In this document: positions 2,782 to 63,785 of the stretch, one piece after another | How positions within the stretch are numbered: the first letter of the stretch is position 1 | How the letters are laid out: every line of letters begins with the position of its first letter | From: Polynucleobacter yangtzensis | GTDB lineage: Bacteria; Pseudomonadota; Gammaproteobacteria; Burkholderiales; Burkholderiaceae | DNA length: 64,000 bases | NCBI RefSeq assembly: GCF_001595965.1 | Contig: NZ_LOJI01000003.1 | Location: 62,001-126,000 of the forward strand | Direction of reading: 5' to 3' | Notes under the pieces: model-generated | Seen by the model: only the letters and a program-made list of their open reading frames with translations | The model's database searches: none | Told to the model about the DNA's origin: nothing | Made by a program: the position numbers and the translations under genes

Positions 2782-4014
2782 TTATTTCTTAGCGCGCTTG
2801 CGCTTTGCTGTTTCAGCAATACGCATACGCAAGGCATTGAGTTTGATAAATCCGCCAGCATCTGCCTGGTTATAAGCACCGCCATCATCATCAAAGGTCG
2901 CAATATTCTGATCAAACAAAGTATTAGCTGAATCACGTGAAATCACAGATACAGAACCTTTGTAGAGCTTCAAACGGACTACGCCATTGACAGCTTGCTG
3001 AGTGTGATCAATCAATGTTTGCAAAGCTAAGCGCTCTGGCGCCCACCACAAGCCGTTGTAGATCAAGCTTGCATAGCGTGGCATCAAATCATCTTTCAAG
3101 TGGGCTACTTCGCGATCCAGAGTAATACTTTCGATACCGCGGTGAGCCTTGAGCAGGATGGTGCCGCCAGGGGTTTCATAGCAACCACGGCTCTTCATGC
3201 CAACAAAACGGTTCTCTACCAAATCCAAACGACCGATGCCGTGCATGCCGCCAATACGGTTTAATTCAGCAAGCAATTCATGTGGCTTATACGCTTTGCC
3301 ATTAATTGCAACAGGATCACCCGCTTTAAATTCAATTTCGATAATCTCTGGAGCATCTGGAGCCTTCTCAGGGGAAACAGTCCAACGCCACATAGACTCT
3401 TCAGCTTCAGCATTTGGGTTTTCCAAATGACGGCCTTCATAACTAATATGCAATAAGTTGGCGTCCATGGAATAAGGCGAACCACCTTGCTTATGCTTCA
3501 TCTCAACTGGAATGCCATGCTTTTCTGCGTAGGCCATCAACTTCTCACGTGACAGCAGATCCCATTCACGCCAAGGAGCAATCACTTTGATTCCTGGCTC
3601 TAATGCGTAGTAACCCAACTCAAAACGCACCTGGTCATTACCTTTACCAGTGGCACCATGAGATACAGCATCAGCACCAGTTAAACGAGCGATTTCAATT
3701 TGACGCTTAGCAATTAAAGGGCGGGCAATAGATGTGCCTAACAAGTATTCACCTTCGTAAATCGTATTCGCACGGAACATCGGAAACACGAAATCGCGCA
3801 CGAACTCTTCGCGCAAGTCATCGATGAAAATGTTTTCTGGTTTGATACCAAATTGCAAAGCCTTGGCGCGTGCTGGCTCGAGCTCTTCGCCTTGACCCAA
3901 ATCCGCAGTAAAGGTAACGATCTCACAGCCATAGGTATCTTGAAGCCACTTCAAGATCACGCTTGTATCGAGACCACCGGAATACGCTAAGACTGCTTTT
4001 TTAATATCGGACAT
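2782..4014 (-). CDS. argG: Argininosuccinate synthase
   Basis: Joins citrulline and aspartate with ATP to give argininosuccinate, the penultimate step of arginine synthesis, in the cytoplasm. The 410-residue protein opens with the ATP-pyrophosphatase loop SGGLDTS (12-18). It continues with the family stretches [18 protein letters not shown] and [17 protein letters not shown]. The length is normal for the short ArgG type, and the C terminus is lysine/arginine-rich. It lies directly downstream of argF (gap of 52 bases), so the last two enzymes before argininosuccinate lyase are probably co-transcribed. I saw no convincing arginine operator. Confidence 0.97.
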
Positions 4015-4066
4015 TTTTTATTCAATCAAAAATAAATTAAAACGAATTACAAAAATTTTTACTCAA

Positions 4067-5014
4067 TTAATCCAAGCGGCCACAAAGCAAATACTCCATC
4101 AAGGCCTTTTGGACATGCAAACGATTTTCCGCCTCTTCCCAAACAATACTTTGCGGGCCATCAATCACTCCAGCTGAAACTTCTTCGCCACGATGGGCTG
4201 GCAAGCAATGCATAAATAAAGCGTCTGGTTTGGCCACAGCCATTAATTCTTCATCCACCATCCAGTCTTGGAAGGCATTCATGCGTGAAGTATTTTCATC
4301 TTCATAGCCCATACTGGTCCAAACATCGGTGGTCACCAGGTCAGCGCCTTTACAGGCATCTTTAGGATCGCCGCAAATCGTCAAATGCTTTGCCGCATTA
4401 GGCGTCAAACGCGCTGGATCCAGTTGATAACCTTCTGGTGCAGAGAAGCGCAACTGAAAATCTAAGCATTCAGCAGCTTGTAGCCAGGTGTAGGCCATAT
4501 TGTTTGCATCACCTACCCAGGCGACGGTCTTGCCTTGAATTGGGCCACGCGCCTCAACAAAAGTGAAGATATCAGCCAGAACTTGGCAAGGATGAAATTC
4601 ATTGGTCAGGCCATTTATTACTGGAACGCGGGAATTAGACGCAAAGCGCTCAATAATTTCCTGACCAAAGGTGCGGATCATGATGATGTCAGTCATCCTT
4701 GAAATCACCTGCGCAGCGTCCTCTACAGGCTCACCACGGCCTAACTGAGTATCGCGGGTGTTCAGATATACGGCATGTCCACCAAGCTGGTGAATGCCCG
4801 CCTCGAACGACAAACGCGTACGAGTGGAATGCTTCTCAAAAATCATCGCCAAAGTTCGGTCATGCAGCGGATGCCAAGTTTCATAACTCTTGAACTTAGC
4901 CTTTAGCCATGCAGAGCGCTTGAGTAAATAGTCATATTCCTCGCGAGCGAGGTCAGAAAACTGCAGATAGTGCTTTACCTGACCGGGCACTTGCGGCTTT
5001 GCCAAGGATGTCAT
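4067..5014 (-). CDS. argF: Ornithine carbamoyltransferase
   Basis: Makes citrulline from ornithine and carbamoyl phosphate; it feeds ArgG, encoded next downstream. Carbamoyl-phosphate-binding STRT lies at 63-66 and HPCQ at 141-144. Ornithine-loop sequence follows at VWTSMG (231-236), and HCLPA is at 269-273. I used the ATG at 5014 (MTSLAKPQ), giving 315 residues, close to the family norm and preceded by GAAAG. The frame stays open to a TTG at 5059 with another ATG at 5047, but those extra residues are not family-like. It is divergent from the DUF3579 gene. Confidence 0.96.
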   Translation of the reverse strand: MTSLAKPQVPGQVKHYLQFSDLAREEYDYLLKRSAWLKAKFKSYETWHPLHDRTLAMIFEKHSTRTRLSFEAGIHQLGGHAVYLNTRDTQLGRGEPVEDAAQVISRMTDIIMIRTFGQEIIERFASNSRVPVINGLTNEFHPCQVLADIFTFVEARGPIQGKTVAWVGDANNMAYTWLQAAECLDFQLRFSAPEGYQLDPARLTPNAAKHLTICGDPKDACKGADLVTTDVWTSMGYEDENTSRMNAFQDWMVDEELMAVAKPDALFMHCLPAHRGEEVSAGVIDGPQSIVWEEAENRLHVQKALMEYLLCGRLD

Positions 5015-7531: not shown

Positions 7532-8374
7532 ATGCCAACACAACAACTCGACTACTTCACCTCCTTAGTTGCTGAAGACGAACACTTCCCTTTAACTGAA
7601 GCTGCGATCGCTGTCGCACAACATGCCTATCCGGATTTAGACGTCCAGGGCGTGCTTGATAAGCTTGATCAATTGGGCAATAAATTAAAGTCGCGCGTAA
7701 CGCCAGATACATCACCGGTTCAGCGCCTGCAAATTCTGAAGCATTTCTTTTATACAGAGTTGGGCTTTGGCCCCAACCAGAATGATTTTTATGCTCCAGA
7801 AAATTCATACTTACATTACGTTCTAGAGAATCGCAGAGGCATACCAATCTCATTGGCAATTTTGATGATTGAACTAGGCAATCAAATTGGTTTAAAAATT
7901 CGCGGCGTTTCGTTTCCCAATCACTTCATGATGCGCATCTCCTTGCAACAAGGCGAAGTGATCATGGATCCTTTAACTGGCGAATCACTCTCCAAGACGC
8001 AGCTACAAGAAATGCTCGACCCTTATTTGGATGCCAAAGGCTATCGAGGTGAGCTCAGTCTGCCACTCAACATCTTCCTACGTGCCTCAAGCTCACGGGA
8101 AATCCTGTCGCGCTTCCTTAGAAACCTCAAAATGATTTATTCAGAGCATGAGCGCTGGGAACGTTTATTGGGCATTCAGGAACGCTTGGTGATTCTACTG
8201 CCCGACTCCATTGAAGAGGTCAGAGACCGTGGCCTGATCTTTGCGCAGCTTGAGTATTTGCGTCCCGCCCTAGAAGACATGCATCGCTACCTAAGCGAAA
8301 TGCCAGAAGCTGAAGATGCCGGTGATATTCGCGAGCATATTGCTACACTCGAAAGTCAAACTAAGCTGCACTAA
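7532..8374 (+). CDS. SirB1-type transglutaminase-like protein
   Basis: Protein of 280 residues with the SirB1 N-terminal domain: a transglutaminase-like fold seen in ENRRGIPISLAILMIELGNQ and RGVSFPNHFMMRI, followed by a C-terminal tetratricopeptide-like helical part. Its biochemical function is not established. I used the ATG at 7532 (MPTQQLDY), because the longer open frame back to 7388 overlaps murJ and has no family character. It lies six bases after murJ. A hairpin with a T run follows the stop. Confidence 0.88.
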   Translation: MPTQQLDYFTSLVAEDEHFPLTEAAIAVAQHAYPDLDVQGVLDKLDQLGNKLKSRVTPDTSPVQRLQILKHFFYTELGFGPNQNDFYAPENSYLHYVLENRRGIPISLAILMIELGNQIGLKIRGVSFPNHFMMRISLQQGEVIMDPLTGESLSKTQLQEMLDPYLDAKGYRGELSLPLNIFLRASSSREILSRFLRNLKMIYSEHERWERLLGIQERLVILLPDSIEEVRDRGLIFAQLEYLRPALEDMHRYLSEMPEAEDAGDIREHIATLESQTKLH

Positions 8375-8407
8375 AGCCAATCTAGATTTGGCTTTAGCTT
8401 AAGTTTT
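8372..8407 (+). terminator. Terminator after the SirB1-type gene
   Basis: Stem TAAAGCCAA / TTGGCTTTA (8372-8380 and 8388-8396) overlaps the stop codon. After seven bases comes a run of six T (8402 onward). The distance to the T run is slightly long. Confidence 0.55.
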
Positions 8408-8418
8408 TTCGTATTCTT

Positions 8419-9063
8419 TTAAATTTTCTTGCGCTGGAAAATTTTATAGAGCGCCGCCAGCACTACTGGTATCGCTGCTGCGCCAATACCAATCAATACG
8501 ATTACATTGAGGTTTTGACGTATCACTGGAATATTGCCAAAGAAATAACCTGCAATAACTAAACTGAAAACCCAGAGCAGAGCACCAGTGACATTGAATA
8601 ACTGAAAGCGCGAGAAGTTCATTTCTGAAACGCCAGCAACAAACGGTGCAAAAGTTCTAATGATGGGCAAGAAGCGCGCAACAATAATGGTCTTGCCGCC
8701 ATGCTTTTCATAAAAGGCATGGGTTTTTAATAATGCGCCTTGATCAATCCAGCGGGACTTACTACTAAAGACTCTTTTACCAATCCAGCGACCAATGAAA
8801 TAGTTCACCGTATTGCCTGCAATTGCCGCAACCAATAAACCGATACATAAAGTCCAGATATTGAAATGCTCGGTAGCGCAATAAGCGCCTGCAATAAATA
8901 AGAGTGAGTCACCGGGCAGAAATGGTGCAACAACTAAACCCGTTTCCGCAAAAACAATTGCAAATAAGAGGCCATAAGCCCAAGGGCCGTATTGCTGAAT
9001 CACTACATCGAGATGTTTATCAATATGCAGTAATAAATCGCCTAATTGCAAAAGGGTATCCAT
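8419..9063 (-). CDS. DedA family membrane protein
   Basis: Inner-membrane protein of 214 residues in the DedA/SNARE-associated family. Family members contribute to membrane-potential homeostasis, and some flip undecaprenyl phosphate or phospholipids. Signature segments are VFAETGLVVAPFLPGDSLLF (about 38-57), GNTVNYFIGRWIG and ARFLPIIRTFAPFVAG (the conserved R-x3-R-T-x3-P region). Four to five membrane segments are visible. It is divergent from miaA and convergent with the SirB1-type gene. The precise substrate cannot be given. Confidence 0.92.
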   Translation of the reverse strand: MDTLLQLGDLLLHIDKHLDVVIQQYGPWAYGLLFAIVFAETGLVVAPFLPGDSLLFIAGAYCATEHFNIWTLCIGLLVAAIAGNTVNYFIGRWIGKRVFSSKSRWIDQGALLKTHAFYEKHGGKTIIVARFLPIIRTFAPFVAGVSEMNFSRFQLFNVTGALLWVFSLVIAGYFFGNIPVIRQNLNVIVLIGIGAAAIPVVLAALYKIFQRKKI

Positions 9064-56900: not shown

Positions 56901-58268
56901 ATGTCAAACATAACCGCTATTTCTTATCTCATTTCATCGGTGTTGTTCATCCTCGCTTTGCGTGGTTTGTCTTCACCAACTACTTCACGCCAAGGTAATA
57001 CCTTCGGCATGATTGGTATGTTGCTTGCTGTGATCACGACATTCTTGATCCCAGACTTCAAGCCTGTATTTTCATTAATCATTGCTGCAATCGTTGGTGG
57101 TGCCGTTATTGGAACCATTGCTGCTAAGCGCGTGCAAATGACTAAGATGCCTGAGTTGGTAGCTTTGATGCACTCCTTTGTAGGTTTGTCAGCTGTACTG
57201 ATCGCGATTGCAGCCGTATTTAATCCAGCACACGACCATACTGGCGCACAAAAGATTGAACTCTTTATTGGCGCGTTTATTGGCGCGATCACATTCACTG
57301 CCTCAGTAATTGCTTTTGGTAAGTTATCTGGCAAGGTTAGTGGCAAGCCAGTAAGCTTTGCTGGTCAACATTTACTCAACCTCCTTTTAGCTATCTCAAT
57401 GGTTGGTGCTGGTATTGCTTACTACATGGGTGATAGCCACGCAGCCTTCTTGGCAATGTGTGCCATTGCCTTGGTATTGGGCGTTACTTTGATCATCCCT
57501 ATTGGTGGTGCCGATATGCCAGTGGTTGTATCGATGCTCAATAGTTACTCTGGTTGGGCTGCAGCAGGTATTGGCTTTACCTTAAACAACCCCGTGTTAA
57601 TTATTGCGGGTGCTTGCGTAGGTTCATCTGGCGCGATTCTGTCCTACATCATGTGTAAGGCAATGAACCGCTCTATCTTGGCTGTATTGCTCGGCGGCTT
57701 TGGTGCCGAAGCTGCTGCAGGTGGTGGCGATGACGGCGGTCCTAAGAATTACAAAACAGGTTCACCTGAAGATGCTGCTTTCTTGATGGAAAACGCTGAC
57801 ACTGTGATCATTGTTCCAGGCTATGGCCTAGCGGTTGCTCGCGCCCAACACGCCCTGAAAGAATTGACTGAAAAGTTAACTCACCATGGTGTGACTGTGA
57901 AATACGCTATTCACCCGGTTGCCGGTCGTATGCCTGGTCATATGAACGTTCTCTTGGCGGAAGCTGAAGTTCCATACGATCAAGTGTTCGAGATGGAAGA
58001 TATCAACAGTGATTTTGGTCAAGCTGACGTGGTCTTGGTGCTCGGCGCTAACGACGTTGTTAACCCAGCAGCACGTACTCCAGGCAGCCCAATTTTTGGT
58101 ATGCCAATCTTGGAGGCGTTCAAAGCAAAAACCATCATCGTTAATAAGCGATCAATGGCGGCTGGTTATGCCGGCTTAGACAACGAGCTTTTCTACATGG
58201 ATAAAACCATGATGGTCTTCGGAGATGCAAAGAAAGTAGTTGAGGAAATGGTCAAGGCTGTTGAGTAA
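56901..58268 (+). CDS. pntB: NAD(P) transhydrogenase, beta subunit; 3' end serves as attachment site
   Basis: Beta subunit of 455 residues. The membrane domain (to about 265) has some nine helices. The NADP-binding domain III contains VPGYGLAVARAQHALKEL, HPVAGRMPGHMNVLLAEA, GANDVVNPAA and NKRSMAAGYAGLDNELFYM. The final 60 bases (58209-58268) are duplicated at 63726-63785, 5.5 kb away. The last codons here (EEMVKAVE) differ from the distant copy (EDMVKAVE), so the present tail was probably brought in by the integrated element. The reading frame is intact and full length. No terminator follows before the recombinase gene. Confidence 0.95.
   Translation: MSNITAISYLISSVLFILALRGLSSPTTSRQGNTFGMIGMLLAVITTFLIPDFKPVFSLIIAAIVGGAVIGTIAAKRVQMTKMPELVALMHSFVGLSAVLIAIAAVFNPAHDHTGAQKIELFIGAFIGAITFTASVIAFGKLSGKVSGKPVSFAGQHLLNLLLAISMVGAGIAYYMGDSHAAFLAMCAIALVLGVTLIIPIGGADMPVVVSMLNSYSGWAAAGIGFTLNNPVLIIAGACVGSSGAILSYIMCKAMNRSILAVLLGGFGAEAAAGGGDDGGPKNYKTGSPEDAAFLMENADTVIIVPGYGLAVARAQHALKELTEKLTHHGVTVKYAIHPVAGRMPGHMNVLLAEAEVPYDQVFEMEDINSDFGQADVVLVLGANDVVNPAARTPGSPIFGMPILEAFKAKTIIVNKRSMAAGYAGLDNELFYMDKTMMVFGDAKKVVEEMVKAVE
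58209..58246. repeat. attL core (left direct repeat, inside pntB)
   Basis: 38 bases identical to 63726-63763, beginning ATGATGGTCTTC and ending GTTGAGGA. After it the two copies continue with four mismatches in 22 bases up to the stop codon, which fits two homologous but different pntB tails joined by site-specific recombination. Confidence 0.88.
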
Positions 58269-58317
58269 TTCAACTGGACCAATAGATATAAGGCTGTAAG
58301 GGGGATTTAAAAGGGCT

Positions 58318-58339
58318 TGTCCAATTCCTGTCCAACTGG
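58318..58339 (+). repeat. Left arm repeats (two TGTCCA units, 11-bp spacing)
   Basis: TGTCCA occurs at 58318 and 58329, each unit being TGTCCA plus five bases, between attL and the recombinase start. The same word in the same direction and spacing occurs three times at the right end. Placement inside both att sites suggests binding sites for the recombinase arm domain. Confidence 0.65.
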
Positions 58340-58348
58340 AGAGGAAAA

Positions 58349-59335
58349 ATGGCATCAATTCGTAACCGCAATGGTAAGTGGCAAGCCCGCATCACCCGCA
58401 AAGGACAAGAAGCAGTTGCAAAGTCCTTTCACTCCAAACAAGACGCTGAAAAGTGGGCTAGGCAGCTTGAGACCGAAATCGACAAGGGCAGCTATACCAA
58501 CACTACCCTTGCTGAAAGAACCCTGTTTAAAGACGTTATAGAGCGCTACGTGCAAGAGGTCACACTCAAGACCCGAAGCATGAAAGAGGATGCATACCGC
58601 CTCAAAGCGCTGGCAAGACACTCCATAGCAAACCTCAGAATGACCGCTCTCACTCCAATTAAGGTAGCGGAGTATCGGGATGAACGATTAAAACTCGTTT
58701 CTAATGGGGCGGTGATACGGGAGCTGAGCTACTTCTCCTCAATCATCAACCATGCAAAACGGGAATGGGGCATTAATATGGTCAACCCAATCCCTTTAGT
58801 GAAGAAACCACAAAGTCCTCAAGGGCGCAACCGAATTCTGACTGAGGAAGAGCTGGGTCTACTATACGCAGCACTCACACCAAGAGTGAAGAATGCAAAC
58901 CATTGGATATTGCCCTTAACTAAATTTGCTTTAGAAAGTGCCATGAGGCGTGGTGAAATCTTAGGATTACGCTGGGAGCATATTGACCTACAAAAACGCA
59001 CTGCTTTTATTCCAATAACTAAAAATGGTGAATCACGCTTGACTCCACTAAGTACGACTGCTACTGAAATCCTGCAATCATTGCCAAGAAACTTACATGG
59101 CGCTGTCTTTCCAGTGACTGCATGCGCCCTATCTGCAGCAATAGATAGAGCAAGGACTAAAGCCAAGATTGAAGATTTTCATTTTCATGATTTAAGACAT
59201 ATGGCTATTACTCGCCTAGCAGAAAAACTCCCCAATCTCATTGAACTTTCAGCAGTATCTGGACATAGGAGTCTTACGATGCTCAAACGCTACTACCACC
59301 CAAATCCAGAGCATTTAGCACAAAAGCTAGGATAA
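58349..59335 (+). CDS. Tyrosine recombinase (integrase) of the element
   Basis: Site-specific recombinase of 328 residues that would insert and excise the element at the pntB 3' end. The N-terminal arm-binding domain (1-45, MASIRNRNGKWQARITRKGQ) is of the phage-integrase type, followed by a core-binding helical domain (about 55-150). The catalytic domain has R200 (AMRRGEILGLRW), K225, H280 and R283 (HDLRH), H306 (SGHRS) and nucleophile Y315 (LKRYYH). All catalytic residues are present, so it is probably active. A GAGAGG ribosome-binding site precedes the ATG. It starts 80 bases after the pntB stop in the same direction with no terminator between, so pnt transcription probably reads into it. 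I found no excisionase gene. Confidence 0.95.
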   Translation: MASIRNRNGKWQARITRKGQEAVAKSFHSKQDAEKWARQLETEIDKGSYTNTTLAERTLFKDVIERYVQEVTLKTRSMKEDAYRLKALARHSIANLRMTALTPIKVAEYRDERLKLVSNGAVIRELSYFSSIINHAKREWGINMVNPIPLVKKPQSPQGRNRILTEEELGLLYAALTPRVKNANHWILPLTKFALESAMRRGEILGLRWEHIDLQKRTAFIPITKNGESRLTPLSTTATEILQSLPRNLHGAVFPVTACALSAAIDRARTKAKIEDFHFHDLRHMAITRLAEKLPNLIELSAVSGHRSLTMLKRYYHPNPEHLAQKLG

Positions 59336-59377: not shown

Positions 59378-59710
59378 ATGAAAACTATCCTTCTATATTT
59401 CGCTTGTGGATTTCTTAACACTGCATTTGCAATAGAAAGTCCAGAAGGGGTTGTGTATTGTCACAAGAAATCGGTTGTGGAATATCGACTAGTCAACCCT
59501 AGAAAAGATGGCACTGCATCTGACGTTGATTTAATTGTTAACGGCAAAACGAAGCGATATATGACGGCATACTCTTGGTTTGGCTCAAATCAGCCCACCC
59601 CAAAAAACTTTAAATTTGCCATTCTTGGGGAAAGAGAGTTTGACCCCTTGTTGGTGTTTGATAATTACCTAGAGAATGTCAATAAAAATCGATACCAGAA
59701 GTGTAACTAA
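59378..59710 (+). CDS. Small secreted protein of unknown function
   Basis: Product of 110 residues that I do not recognise. Residues 1-18 (MKTILLYFACGFLNTAFA) look like a Sec signal peptide with cleavage after AFA. The mature part of about 92 residues contains two cysteines, one near each end (in VYCHKK and as the second-last residue), which could form a disulfide in the periplasm. It is rich in Lys, Tyr and Phe and has no membrane segment. It follows the recombinase by 42 bases and is convergent with the autotransporter gene, ending only 19 bases from it. A TATACT-like -10 lies upstream near 59342. Confidence 0.75.
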   Translation: MKTILLYFACGFLNTAFAIESPEGVVYCHKKSVVEYRLVNPRKDGTASDVDLIVNGKTKRYMTAYSWFGSNQPTPKNFKFAILGEREFDPLLVFDNYLENVNKNRYQKCN

Positions 59711-59729: not shown

Positions 59730-61736
59730 TTACAATCCCACCGTGTAAGTTGCCATCACAGTCGTTGTACCCACCGCTTGATAAGCCTCTTGACGATAAA
59801 TGCCAGTAATACCTAAGCGTTGATTCTTTTCAATGTCATAGCTCGCACCAAGCATGGCTGTTGGTCTAGTTTTTACTGGGTTGGGATTAAAGTTTACTGA
59901 GGTTAAGCCAGAGATACCTGTCGCATTGATTGAGCCATTCTGGGTATTGGTATCAGACTCTACGCCAGCACTGGCAAATAGATTGGTTTTAGGAATGCCT
60001 TTGTACTGCGCACCTAAGCCAGCCAATACAGTAGTAGCGTTGGTATTAAGAGCTGAGTAGGTCAAAGGTGCAGTGACAGAACTACTTGCACTTTCGGCAT
60101 ACCCACCCATATTGTTTTGGGTGTAGCGGACACCAGCATAGGGAGAAAGGATGACATTTTGCGCAATAGCAAATCCATACTTAGCTGATAGCTGTGCGCC
60201 TTGGCTATTGAGCTGTGATGAACCAGAGCCTGCTTCACTCAAACCAACAACTTGGCGAGTCACCGTTGTATTTTTTTGTCCATAAGCAGCTGATACTTTG
60301 ACTTGCGTTCCAGTGTCATCCAAGCGCTCATTCCAAACTCCAAACAAACCTAGCAATGGGGTGTTATTACCAAGATTGACAGTAGCGCCAGCGTTATTGA
60401 CTGAGAGATTTTGGTCTGCATACGCACCAATGCGGTAGTGTGGATGTGGGCGATAAGCCGCAATCAGTAAGGCACTGGTGTTATTTAAGCCATTAGCAGC
60501 AGATACTGCAGTGTTACGACCACCAGCGGAAATACAAATATTGTTCTTATCGAATACAGGGCAGTCATAAGTAAAGCTATTGGTAAGAACGGTGTTCTGT
60601 AATGCGAAGATAGGTTGTAAAGCGTTAGCTGTATTGGCGAGAGATTGCTGAGTCCAAATTAAGGATGCTCCAGTAAACACCAAATCATATTTGCCACTCA
60701 CCCCATTAAGAGACAGACTCCAGCGCATATTGTCATAAGTACCAGACGATGTCGTGGAAACGGTGACATTACCATTCAAAACTCCTGAATACGTTCTAGA
60801 CGTTAAAGTAGGTGAGCCGTAGATTCCGAAATTTGCAATCGCAGTGGCATTGGTCGCCCATAACTGACCGTAATTAGTAGTGCTATTAATTCCGATGTTG
60901 TAATTTGTTAATGTGCCAGTTGAATTTGTATATGTTAGAGCAGTCGTAGAAGCTGTAGCTCCATTGCCACCTTGATAATTATTTAGAGTGCCAATGACTC
61001 TTGCGTTGAAGATGCCCGCCGTTCCACCACTAATGACTCCACCAATATTATTTAAAGTAGTAATAGTCCCAGAGTTATTAATTCCGTAATCTGTTCCCGT
61101 AATTAAGCCTCCAGAATTATTAGTTAAGGTAGAGATTGTTGATGTAGAGGCATAGTTCCAGATACCGTGTGAATTCCCACTACTTCCCGTGGTAGATATT
61201 GTGCCGCTATTGATAATATTAGTTATAGTGCCGCCATTCCAGTTATAAACGCCGCCATAGGTAGTGCCAGTAATTAACGCTCCAGAATTATTCGTTAATG
61301 TTCCAATAGTTCCTGACTGGTTATATATGCCGCCATAGGTAGTGCCAGTAATGTTGCCTGAGTTGGTTATAGAAGTTACTGTTCCTGCGTTTTGAATACC
61401 ATAAGAAGAGCCAGTTAAAACTGCGTTTGAATTATTTGTAATGCTATCAACAGTTCCTGACTGAATCCAAATTGATGGATAACCAGAGCCACTGGTAACG
61501 CTCCCGTAGTTGTCGATTCCAGCAGCAGAACTTATGTTCCCGTGAATACCCGCAGTATTTGATGGAGCAGTAATATTTCCAGTGGAGGTTACTGTTACCA
61601 GCCCAGTTGGCAAATCACAACCCGTTGTAATTGAAGAATCGATTACTGTTGAAGGGCAATTAGCAGCAAAGGCAGGTGCGCTTGCGAAGCCCATAAAATA
61701 CGTCACCAAAATAGCGGAAGTTAAGCGACTATTCAT
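59730..61736 (-). CDS. Type V autotransporter (beta-helix passenger, C-terminal barrel)
   Basis: Outer-membrane or surface protein of 668 residues. A signal peptide is cleaved after AFA (residue 24). The passenger (about 25-330) is made of Gly/Ser/Thr/Asn-rich repeats of about 20-27 residues, such as ITNSGNITGTTYGGIYNQSG and LTNNSGALITGTTYGGVYN, typical of a right-handed beta-helix. An autotransporter barrel domain covers about 400-668, with alternating strands ending MATYTVGL rather than the usual terminal Phe or Trp. It contains two cysteines in a loop (CPVFDKNNIC). There are no obvious catalytic residues, so adhesin-like or protective surface functions are possible. It is cargo of the integrative element, reads against the other genes, and is divergent from the polymerase-like gene. 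Confidence 0.9.
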   Translation of the reverse strand: MNSRLTSAILVTYFMGFASAPAFAANCPSTVIDSSITTGCDLPTGLVTVTSTGNITAPSNTAGIHGNISSAAGIDNYGSVTSGSGYPSIWIQSGTVDSITNNSNAVLTGSSYGIQNAGTVTSITNSGNITGTTYGGIYNQSGTIGTLTNNSGALITGTTYGGVYNWNGGTITNIINSGTISTTGSSGNSHGIWNYASTSTISTLTNNSGGLITGTDYGINNSGTITTLNNIGGVISGGTAGIFNARVIGTLNNYQGGNGATASTTALTYTNSTGTLTNYNIGINSTTNYGQLWATNATAIANFGIYGSPTLTSRTYSGVLNGNVTVSTTSSGTYDNMRWSLSLNGVSGKYDLVFTGASLIWTQQSLANTANALQPIFALQNTVLTNSFTYDCPVFDKNNICISAGGRNTAVSAANGLNNTSALLIAAYRPHPHYRIGAYADQNLSVNNAGATVNLGNNTPLLGLFGVWNERLDDTGTQVKVSAAYGQKNTTVTRQVVGLSEAGSGSSQLNSQGAQLSAKYGFAIAQNVILSPYAGVRYTQNNMGGYAESASSSVTAPLTYSALNTNATTVLAGLGAQYKGIPKTNLFASAGVESDTNTQNGSINATGISGLTSVNFNPNPVKTRPTAMLGASYDIEKNQRLGITGIYRQEAYQAVGTTTVMATYTVGL
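61251..61352 (-). repeat. Near-identical repeat units in the autotransporter passenger
   Basis: The 24-base word starting GCCGCCATAGG occurs identically at 61251-61274 and 61329-61352, a period of 78 bases (26 codons), within a longer series of diverged repeats. It encodes ITGTTYGG in both units. The identity suggests a recent tandem duplication or gene conversion in the passenger. Confidence 0.75.
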
Positions 61737-61850: not shown

Positions 61851-63308
61851 ATGTCTTTATTTGAATATAGGGCTTACTCCAAACATCCTGCTATCAAAAA
61901 GCAGGCAGAAGTCTTAGTTAACCTGATGCTGAGTGAGCGTTCTCGCAAGCCTTCAGCAAATAAACGAAACAAGCTCACCAAATGGATGAAAACCGCCATA
62001 GCAGGTCTTTATCTGATTGGCGGATATCAAAGAGGTGATGTGCAGATTCCGACTGGACGCAACCTTTATCAAGGCAATACTCGTAGAAGTGCGATGTATC
62101 GAAGTGAGCTATTAGATTGCTTTTTATGGCTGCGTAGCAATGGCTATATTGAAATGACCAAACCAGCCCATCAAGACAAGAATGCCAAATGGACGCCTGC
62201 TGCCTATCGCTTAACTAAGAAGTGGTTTGATGTTGCGTGTAACTTTAGCCCCTACACTGAAAGACAAAATCAAATCCTTCAATCGATTACTCGCAATCCT
62301 GCAGCTCCATTGATTGAGCTTCGTAAAGATGGCAAGAGAATGCGTTTGAATCACCACCCCGAAAAGTGGCGATGGCTCAAGAGAATTAAGACTTATAACG
62401 AACGACTGGAAAAGCATCAATTTAAGCTCAACGGAGAAGTGTTGCCACCAGTACTATTTTCTTTAACCAGAATCTTTAATGACGGTTCGTTCAATCGAGG
62501 TGGACGCTACTATTCAACCTTTCAAGGATTTAAGTCCCAGTTAAGGTTATTCATCACCATCGACAATGAACCTGTCATAGAAGTCGACTACAAGGGCTTA
62601 CATCCATCATTACTCTATCAAAGGGCTGGACTACAAGAACCAACCCAAGAAGCCTATACGATTGATGGCTACCCTAGAAAGCTGGTTAAAAAAGCCTTCA
62701 ATATCCTCATTAATCGCAAGAAACCAGCTCCTGCAACAGGTAGTCTTATCTTTTATCTTAATAAAAATAAGCAACAGTATGTGGATGAAAAGCACCCTAT
62801 CGCACCTATTATCGACAAGGAATACTGCATCGCTCTGGAGAAGGCGATTAGAGACCATCATAAGTCCATAGAACACTTCTTTTGCACAGGCATAGGTCTT
62901 GAGCTACAAAACCACGACAGCCTTCTATGCAGTCATATATTTGATTATTTTTTATTTAAAACGGACAGTATTGTCCTAGCAGTGCATGATTCATTTATTG
63001 TTAAACAGAGTGATATTCCTCACCTTGCAGAAGCCATTCGCTATGCTGAAGTTACTGTCGCTAAAGAATTAAATACCACTTACAGAGAACCAGACCTTGA
63101 AACAGAAACTGTGACTCAAATTGATAACTTTGACCAACTGATGAGTTCTTCATTTGGTTCTTCTCTAGACATCAACTACATACCAGAATCATTAATCTCA
63201 GAGTTATTGGATAACGTAAATCAAGAACTAGAGCTTGCTGAAGATGTTCTATCTTTTGCTGATGCTGATGCAGATGCAGTAATAGATGCTGAAGAACCCC
63301 TGAATTAA
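61851..63308 (+). CDS. Polymerase-A-like palm-domain protein of the element
   Basis: 485-residue protein that I cannot name, but which carries motifs in the order and character of family A polymerases. Residues 215-225 read NRGGRYYSTFQ. Motif A-like: VIEVDYKGLHPSLLY with D246. Motif B-like: R276-x3-K280 in PRKLVKKAFNILINR, comparable to R-x3-K-x7-YG of Pol I and T7 RNA polymerase, but with Asn (N288) where the sugar-sensing Tyr falls. Motif C-like: LAVHDSFIV with H379 and D380, as in T7 RNA polymerase HDSFG and Pol I VHDE. An N-terminal region (about 75-125) resembles a winged helix, and the C-terminal tail (450-485) is acidic. There is no exonuclease, helicase or primase module, and no strong Shine-Dalgarno sequence before the ATG. 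A role in replicating the element is inferred. Confidence 0.85.
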   Translation: MSLFEYRAYSKHPAIKKQAEVLVNLMLSERSRKPSANKRNKLTKWMKTAIAGLYLIGGYQRGDVQIPTGRNLYQGNTRRSAMYRSELLDCFLWLRSNGYIEMTKPAHQDKNAKWTPAAYRLTKKWFDVACNFSPYTERQNQILQSITRNPAAPLIELRKDGKRMRLNHHPEKWRWLKRIKTYNERLEKHQFKLNGEVLPPVLFSLTRIFNDGSFNRGGRYYSTFQGFKSQLRLFITIDNEPVIEVDYKGLHPSLLYQRAGLQEPTQEAYTIDGYPRKLVKKAFNILINRKKPAPATGSLIFYLNKNKQQYVDEKHPIAPIIDKEYCIALEKAIRDHHKSIEHFFCTGIGLELQNHDSLLCSHIFDYFLFKTDSIVLAVHDSFIVKQSDIPHLAEAIRYAEVTVAKELNTTYREPDLETETVTQIDNFDQLMSSSFGSSLDINYIPESLISELLDNVNQELELAEDVLSFADADADAVIDAEEPLN

Positions 63309-63595
63309 CCAAGTAATTAATCTTAGGATTAATGGTAATTTATTGATGCTGGAGTCGTAGGAATCCTTCTATGGCTTATTAGTACTGCTAAGGTAGACAA
63401 TGCAGATAAATACCTATACATATCAAGTATTTACAGAGATTTAGAAAATAAACACTTCTCCATCCACTCACCGATAGGGGATAAATAAATATCAGTCTAT
63501 TTTGTCCTTTTTGTATGGGAGTTAAGCATCAACATAGGTATGAATTTAGCTTAACCCATGCCCCCCCCTGACTCAATATTAGATGCCAAATATTC

Positions 63596-63628
63596 TGTCC
63601 AGACTCTGTCCATTTCTTGTCCATTTAG
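63596..63628 (+). repeat. Right arm repeats (three TGTCCA units, 11-bp spacing)
   Basis: TGTCCA begins at 63596, 63607 and 63618, exactly 11 bases apart, about one helical turn. The last two units share TGTCCATTT; the left-end units read TGTCCAATTCC and TGTCCAACTGG. The array lies about 100 bases inside attR. Confidence 0.7.
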
Positions 63629-63725: not shown

Positions 63726-63785
63726 ATGATGGTCTTCGGAGATGCAAAGAAAGTAGTTGAGGACATGGTCAAAGCGGTTGAATAA
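63726..63785 (+). repeat. attR and displaced native pntB tail
   Basis: 60 bases matching the last 60 bases of pntB; the first 38 are identical. In frame it encodes MMVFGDAKKVVEDMVKAVE and a stop, so it is the remnant of the original chromosomal pntB 3' end. The four differences from the left copy are three synonymous changes and one Glu-to-Asp change. Such a pattern of coding constraint shows both copies evolved as true gene ends. Confidence 0.88.

Follow-up and report, generated by a model that had tools for sequence, protein, structure and literature searches.

What does a chromosomal element of only about 5.5 kb do with a polymerase of its own? The question is raised by a gene at positions 61851-63308 (forward strand) of a 64,000-nucleotide stretch of Polynucleobacter yangtzensis DNA (contig NZ_LOJI01000003.1, positions 62,001 to 126,000; hereafter the window), which encodes a 485-residue family A-like polymerase inside an element flanked by copies of the 3' end of pntB. 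The gene had been singled out from the letters of the sequence as a minimal polymerase of a mobile element, possibly protein- or transcript-primed (the original prediction). Here, we present a computational analysis of the polymerase, its relatives and the element. The simplest reading makes the protein a primase-polymerase specific to the element: with a rough probability of 0.55, it is of the TV-Pol/divPolA2 kind and supplies the element's own DNA synthesis.

The polymerase and its family

The open reading frame (ORF) is intact, with an ATG start, 485 codons and no internal stops. Its position and length, as well as the three motifs quoted in the original prediction, were recovered in the claimed order, and the numbering of D246 and D380 is correct; motifs A, B and C follow one another with the catalytic aspartate, the R...K pair and HD. 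In the AlphaFold2 model, palm and fingers are present with block confidence scores (predicted local distance difference test) mostly above 90, and they share their fold with Pol I and T7 RNA polymerase. In the fold comparison with VIA-align, all 50 rows among the matches listed were polymerases of the family A superfamily. The model places R219 in a beta strand (residues 217-221), D246 and D380 in the palm and R276xxxK280 in the fingers. A profile alignment with Pol I (hhalign) sets D246 on the motif A aspartate of Pol I with motifs A and B in register, although this single comparison is weak (probability 1.7%, E=0.029). The fold match and this alignment indirectly suggest that D246 and D380 may lie together at one site.

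The guess of an N-terminal winged helix agrees with the winged-helix-like topology of residues ~36-132 in the model. The claim that accessory domains are absent stood in part: Pfam returned nothing above its cut-off, and no nuclease or helicase was recognised by it, but the N-terminal domain is a separate one, and the protein ends in an acidic tail of low model confidence.

Neither PF00476 (DNA_pol_A) nor PF00940 (RNA_pol, T7-like) matched the polymerase at E<=1, while Pol I from the same genome reaches 2.4e-164 with PF00476, and there was no match in NCBIfam, PADLOC (E<=1) or the PDB sequences. The protein does match phrog_4756 (E=1.1e-49), a family with no function assigned. At E<=0.01, tblastn detected relatives in 169 of 50,697 phage records (140 from Vibrio), and among the 40 phage matches listed the features were named hypothetical or conserved hypothetical protein, or the record was without annotation. 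Among plasmid records, 3 of 72,556 were matched.

Further relatives were collected by scanning genome contigs with eight aligned members (175 pattern hits, 154 relatives, 80 loci carried forward) and viral contigs in the same way (33 relatives among 99 pattern hits). Of the resulting 113 loci, 108 (76 in bacteria, 32 in viruses) hold an ORF of the family that is 280 aa or longer. In the alignment of 88 rows used for conservation, G218, R219, R232, D246, Y269, K280, L376, H379, D380 and S381 are invariant, and 87 rows have R276. The scans behind 87 of the 88 rows used motif A or motif C as pattern, either being enough for a hit, so the conservation of these two motifs is partly selected; R219, R232, Y269, R276 and K280 lay outside the patterns. 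The near-invariance of catalytic and other residues places the motifs beyond chance. The fingers aspartate column holds Asp in 83 rows and Glu in three; the window polymerase itself has E267, where both of its close relatives have Asp.

Position among known polymerases

The original prediction implied a novel protein, yet the same kind has been published twice, as TV-Pol in 2008 and as divPolA2 in 2024. TV-Pols occur in mobile elements and viruses; they are minimal polymerases resembling family A and are predicted to combine primase and polymerase activity, with a conserved hairpin arginine, two aspartates, a fingers aspartate and RxxxK as hallmarks. Some carry an N-terminal domain and lie beside genes for an integrase, resolvase or transposase (Iyer et al. 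2008, PMC2579912). The window polymerase resembles this subset in being minimal, in the hairpin arginine before motif A (R219), the two palm aspartates and RxxxK, and in having no recognised nuclease; it likewise lies in a mobile element, and its family has integrase or resolvase neighbours. Unlike in TV-Pols, its N-terminal domain looks winged-helix rather than all-helical, and the thumb is hard to recognise in the region compared with their two-helix thumb (model helices 137-145 and 170-187). In Ma-LMM01, a genome named in 2008, the whole record gave no match to the window polymerase at E<=10. A search of 150 of its 162 kb with hmmsearch --max ranked gp030, which may be the TV-Pol of that genome described by Iyer et al., second with profile A4 at a non-significant E=0.22, and gp030 was not among the 15 matches listed with profile A1.

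The divPolA2 proteins of tailed phages were described by Yutin et al. 2024, with AUR84708 as the modelled protein (PMC11348598). AUR84708.1 is the ORF that the window polymerase matches by tblastn (E=2e-4, 22.5% identity, residues 10-409, 82% of the polymerase). Barbavirus homologues were weaker (E=9e-3 to 2e-2 among the matches listed), and the structure match to a Barba31A protein reached E=9e-21. An N-terminal domain followed by palm and fingers, with no exonuclease, is common to divPolA2 and the window polymerase. Unlike divPolA2, the latter lies in a chromosomal integrative element with its own integrase, not in a large phage, and the sequence similarity is moderate. In the open-licence literature searched, the name divPolA2 turned up solely in that paper and its preprint, and we found no statement that divPolA2 and TV-Pol are one family; in PMC11348598, 'TV-Pol' appears once, in the background.

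The closest biochemical precedent is CCPol-MP of SCCmec, which primes de novo and requires the CCPol active site to do so (Bebel et al. 2020, PMC7581432). When the partner is missing, CCPol is limited to primer extension (PMC7581432; Rice 2023, PMC10061031), and Rice 2023 widens the picture to PolA-SSB pairs in Bacillota (PMC10061031). To the knowledge of Bebel et al. in 2020, no other proposed TV-Pol had been biochemically characterised (PMC7581432). CCPol and the window polymerase are both encoded in mobile elements, with a polymerase domain of family A and a reduced N-terminal part. CCPol keeps part of the exonuclease region and is encoded in one operon together with its OB-fold partner and a helicase, beside large serine recombinases; genes of this kind were not recognised in the window element. 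Pipolins are integrative elements with their own primer-independent family B polymerase. The window element is like them by analogy, as it is also integrative and carries its own polymerase, but that polymerase has the family A fold.

The element and its site at pntB

The location in a mobile element, which had been proposed from the sequence, is now defined by attachment sites and an empty site. The left site (attL, 58209-58268, forward strand) is the last 60 bp of pntB and the end of its ORF; it is a direct repeat, 93% identical and 5517 bp away, of a second copy (attR, 63726-63785, forward strand) that lies immediately 5' of a terminator hairpin. In G052, a relative outside the 16 genomes of the genus that match the polymerase family (G and L numbers are our handles for genomes and loci), pntB is followed directly by the same hairpin; this is the empty site, without the insert. 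YTGTCCA repeats 11 bp apart, probable arm sites of the integrase, occur just inside both ends on the forward strand: two at the left (58317-58334, starts 58317 and 58328) and three at the right (63595-63623, starts 63595, 63606 and 63617). The same 2+3 set with the same spacing is present in the G124 element, while G026 has a diverged version with TGTCCT at the right end; further single copies occur elsewhere within the elements.

Between these ends lie four non-overlapping ORFs of at least 100 aa. In addition to the polymerase gene, they are a tyrosine integrase (58349-59335, forward strand, 328 aa; PF00589 E=2.5e-27, phrog_1 integrase E=6.2e-59), a 110-aa ORF with a signal-peptide-like start by eye (59378-59710, forward strand; no Pfam or PHROG match at E<=1), which is not adjacent to the polymerase gene, and an autotransporter on the reverse strand (59730-61736, 668 aa; PF03797 E=4.2e-15), which is cargo. 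3' of the polymerase gene, the stretch 63369-63441 holds no supported ORF; over 73 bp it shares 77% identity with the G124 element.

The 3' end of pntB is an integration hot spot in the genus, where related integrases bring very different cargo. We found pntB in 56 of the 61 genus genomes searched, with an extra match to its 3' end in eight, some of these only on other contigs. In the stretches examined, six elements have both ends visible (G000, G124, G026, G028, G003 and G006): three carry the polymerase, two carry primase/helicase-type genes and one carries neither. Like the window element, those of G124 and G026 hold, between such repeats, pntB, an integrase (76% and 59% identical), the polymerase (71% in both) and an autotransporter, in a gene order that differs from that of the window. 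At the same site, G028 and G003 have a related integrase (71% and 69%) and no match to the polymerase profile; where the polymerase is absent, G028 carries D5_N/DUF5906/Pox_D5 genes and G003 carries PriCT_2 plus DUF5906/VapE-like genes. The type of replication gene is swapped, polymerase for primase/helicase, at one single attachment site; Iyer et al. argued for TV-Pols from such exchanges of replication gene types within comparable frames (PMC2579912). The stretches in G024 and G001 have one repeat copy and no recognised element genes. The autotransporters of the three polymerase-bearing elements (in G124 at L145:11786-13285, in G026 at L146:12381-14279) differ in their relatedness: that of the window is 71% identical over 316 aa to that of G124, while that of G026 shares only the Pfam domain.

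Occurrence and neighbourhood

The occurrence of the family is sporadic. It was found in 16 of 151 genus genomes, counting the window genome and one match of just 52 residues where a contig ends, in 6 of 299 genomes drawn from the taxonomic family (four from the genus itself) and in 6 of 300 from the order, including the window genome. In a tree of 103 proteins, the window polymerase shares a long branch with its two 71%-identical relatives, and other members from the genus are placed far from it, which suggests several separate lineages within the genus; the tree was made by a quick method, with 40 of 100 inner branches weakly supported and several long branches. Among the three close copies, nonsynonymous divergence (dN) is 0.22-0.28, far below the saturated synonymous divergence (dS 4.0 in one pair, not computable in two), and no stops occur. 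In 51 of the 76 bacterial loci, some of which are on short contigs, a recombinase of the tyrosine (42) or serine (19) type is encoded within 5 kb of the gene.

Two small proteins recur in the neighbourhood. One of 65-72 residues with a basic tail, possibly a partner of the polymerase or a marker of the elements, lies between integrase and polymerase in the G124 element (L145:9896-10096), in G096 (L151) between a recombinase that looks unrelated and a fragment of the polymerase at the end of a contig, and in the loci of three more distant polymerases (L155 in G086, L158 in G106 and L159 in G055); it matches 35 of the 151 genus genomes, the window genome not being among them. The other, rich in Cys and His and with an HGG motif, lies immediately 5' of the polymerase gene in four loci of the genus (L149:7002-7235, L150:8851-9081, L152:8628-8855 and L154:8710-9036). 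It has relatives near the gene in L098, L030, L090 and L091 and in the two primase-bearing pntB elements, and none of the three tested matched Pfam at E<=0.01. Additionally, one viral contig (L127) holds two family members (3087-4397 and 7816-8835) and an integrase match.

What the polymerase may do

In the reading as an element-specific primase-polymerase, the integrase would excise the element as a circle, and the winged-helix-like domain would hold the polymerase on element DNA. The polymerase could then start a strand without a pre-made primer on a single-stranded template, either a region opened by the host or DNA incoming after transfer, and make a short or complete second strand. The remaining replication would fall to the host helicase, single-stranded DNA-binding protein and Pol III, proposed because the element has no recognised helicase gene, and the circle would reintegrate at pntB, restoring its end. 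Priming would be de novo; the protein-primed start suggested earlier finds no backing, as no observation points to a terminal protein. This reading draws its support from the fold, the catalytic residues, the element ends, repeats and empty site, and the exchange with primase/helicase genes, as well as from the recombinase proximity, the sporadic occurrence, the low dN and the precedent of CCPol-MP (PMC7581432).

Several points weigh against it. None of the four element ORFs is a helicase by Pfam (E<=1), and a CCPol-like partner gene was not recognised in the window element, though CCPol needs its partner to prime. We know of no activity for any member of the polymerase's subgroup. The enrichment of tyrosine integrases near the gene is only mild (of 39 loci, 16 at 0-2.5 kb, 8 at 2.5-5 kb and 10 at 5-8 kb). 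The G006 element has an integrase (60%) and neither polymerase nor primase/helicase genes were seen in it, so a replication gene may not be needed at all. In phages, divPolA2 can co-occur with another DNA polymerase in variable neighbourhoods (PMC11348598), which fits a repair or other accessory role.

A bolder form of the element-specific primase-polymerase, which we offer tentatively, is a family A counterpart of pipolins. Here, a single protein would combine a DNA-binding winged helix with a thumb-poor polymerase, recognise element DNA and start strands with no need of primer, partner or helicase, and a 5-kb unit of integrase plus polymerase would be among the smallest self-replicating integrative elements.

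Alternatively, the polymerase could itself be cargo, serving repair, gap-filling or anti-phage defence to the benefit of host or element with no role in element replication. The phage neighbourhoods just mentioned (PMC11348598) and the polymerase-free G006 element speak for this, as do restriction-modification-like genes near some members, in clusters present in 11, 8, 6 and 6 of the 108 loci and named by reading their sequences. We nevertheless regard it as unlikely, as the polymerase is present in all three related elements while other cargo varies in place and sequence, G028 and G003 hold primase/helicase genes instead of defence genes, and PADLOC did not match the polymerase.

A single-subunit RNA polymerase is a quite unlikely reading, in which the protein would transcribe the element, or synthesise nothing but RNA primers, and its winged-helix-like domain would read promoters; its fold is shared with T7 RNA polymerase, and PF00940 matches 2 of the 88 family members (best E=0.0061). 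We regard it as very unlikely that the polymerase depends on primers and serves solely to finish second strands on incoming single-stranded element DNA: host polymerases could do this, and the presence of primase-type genes in its place speaks for priming. In favour of this alternative, CCPol alone just extends primers (PMC7581432; PMC10061031), no partner gene was recognised and second-strand synthesis is discussed in Rice 2023 (PMC10061031).

Significance

The polymerase and its element belong to a known but little-studied kind, and the finding is real and well placed. Two sets that were described separately, the divPolA2 proteins of phages and the integrase-linked TV-Pol-like proteins of bacteria, belong together in one homologous family. 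Further, the element is compact, its ends are mapped, an empty site is known, two other genomes have close copies, and at one attachment site there is a natural exchange with primase/helicase genes; this makes the primase-polymerase prediction of 2008 (PMC2579912) testable.
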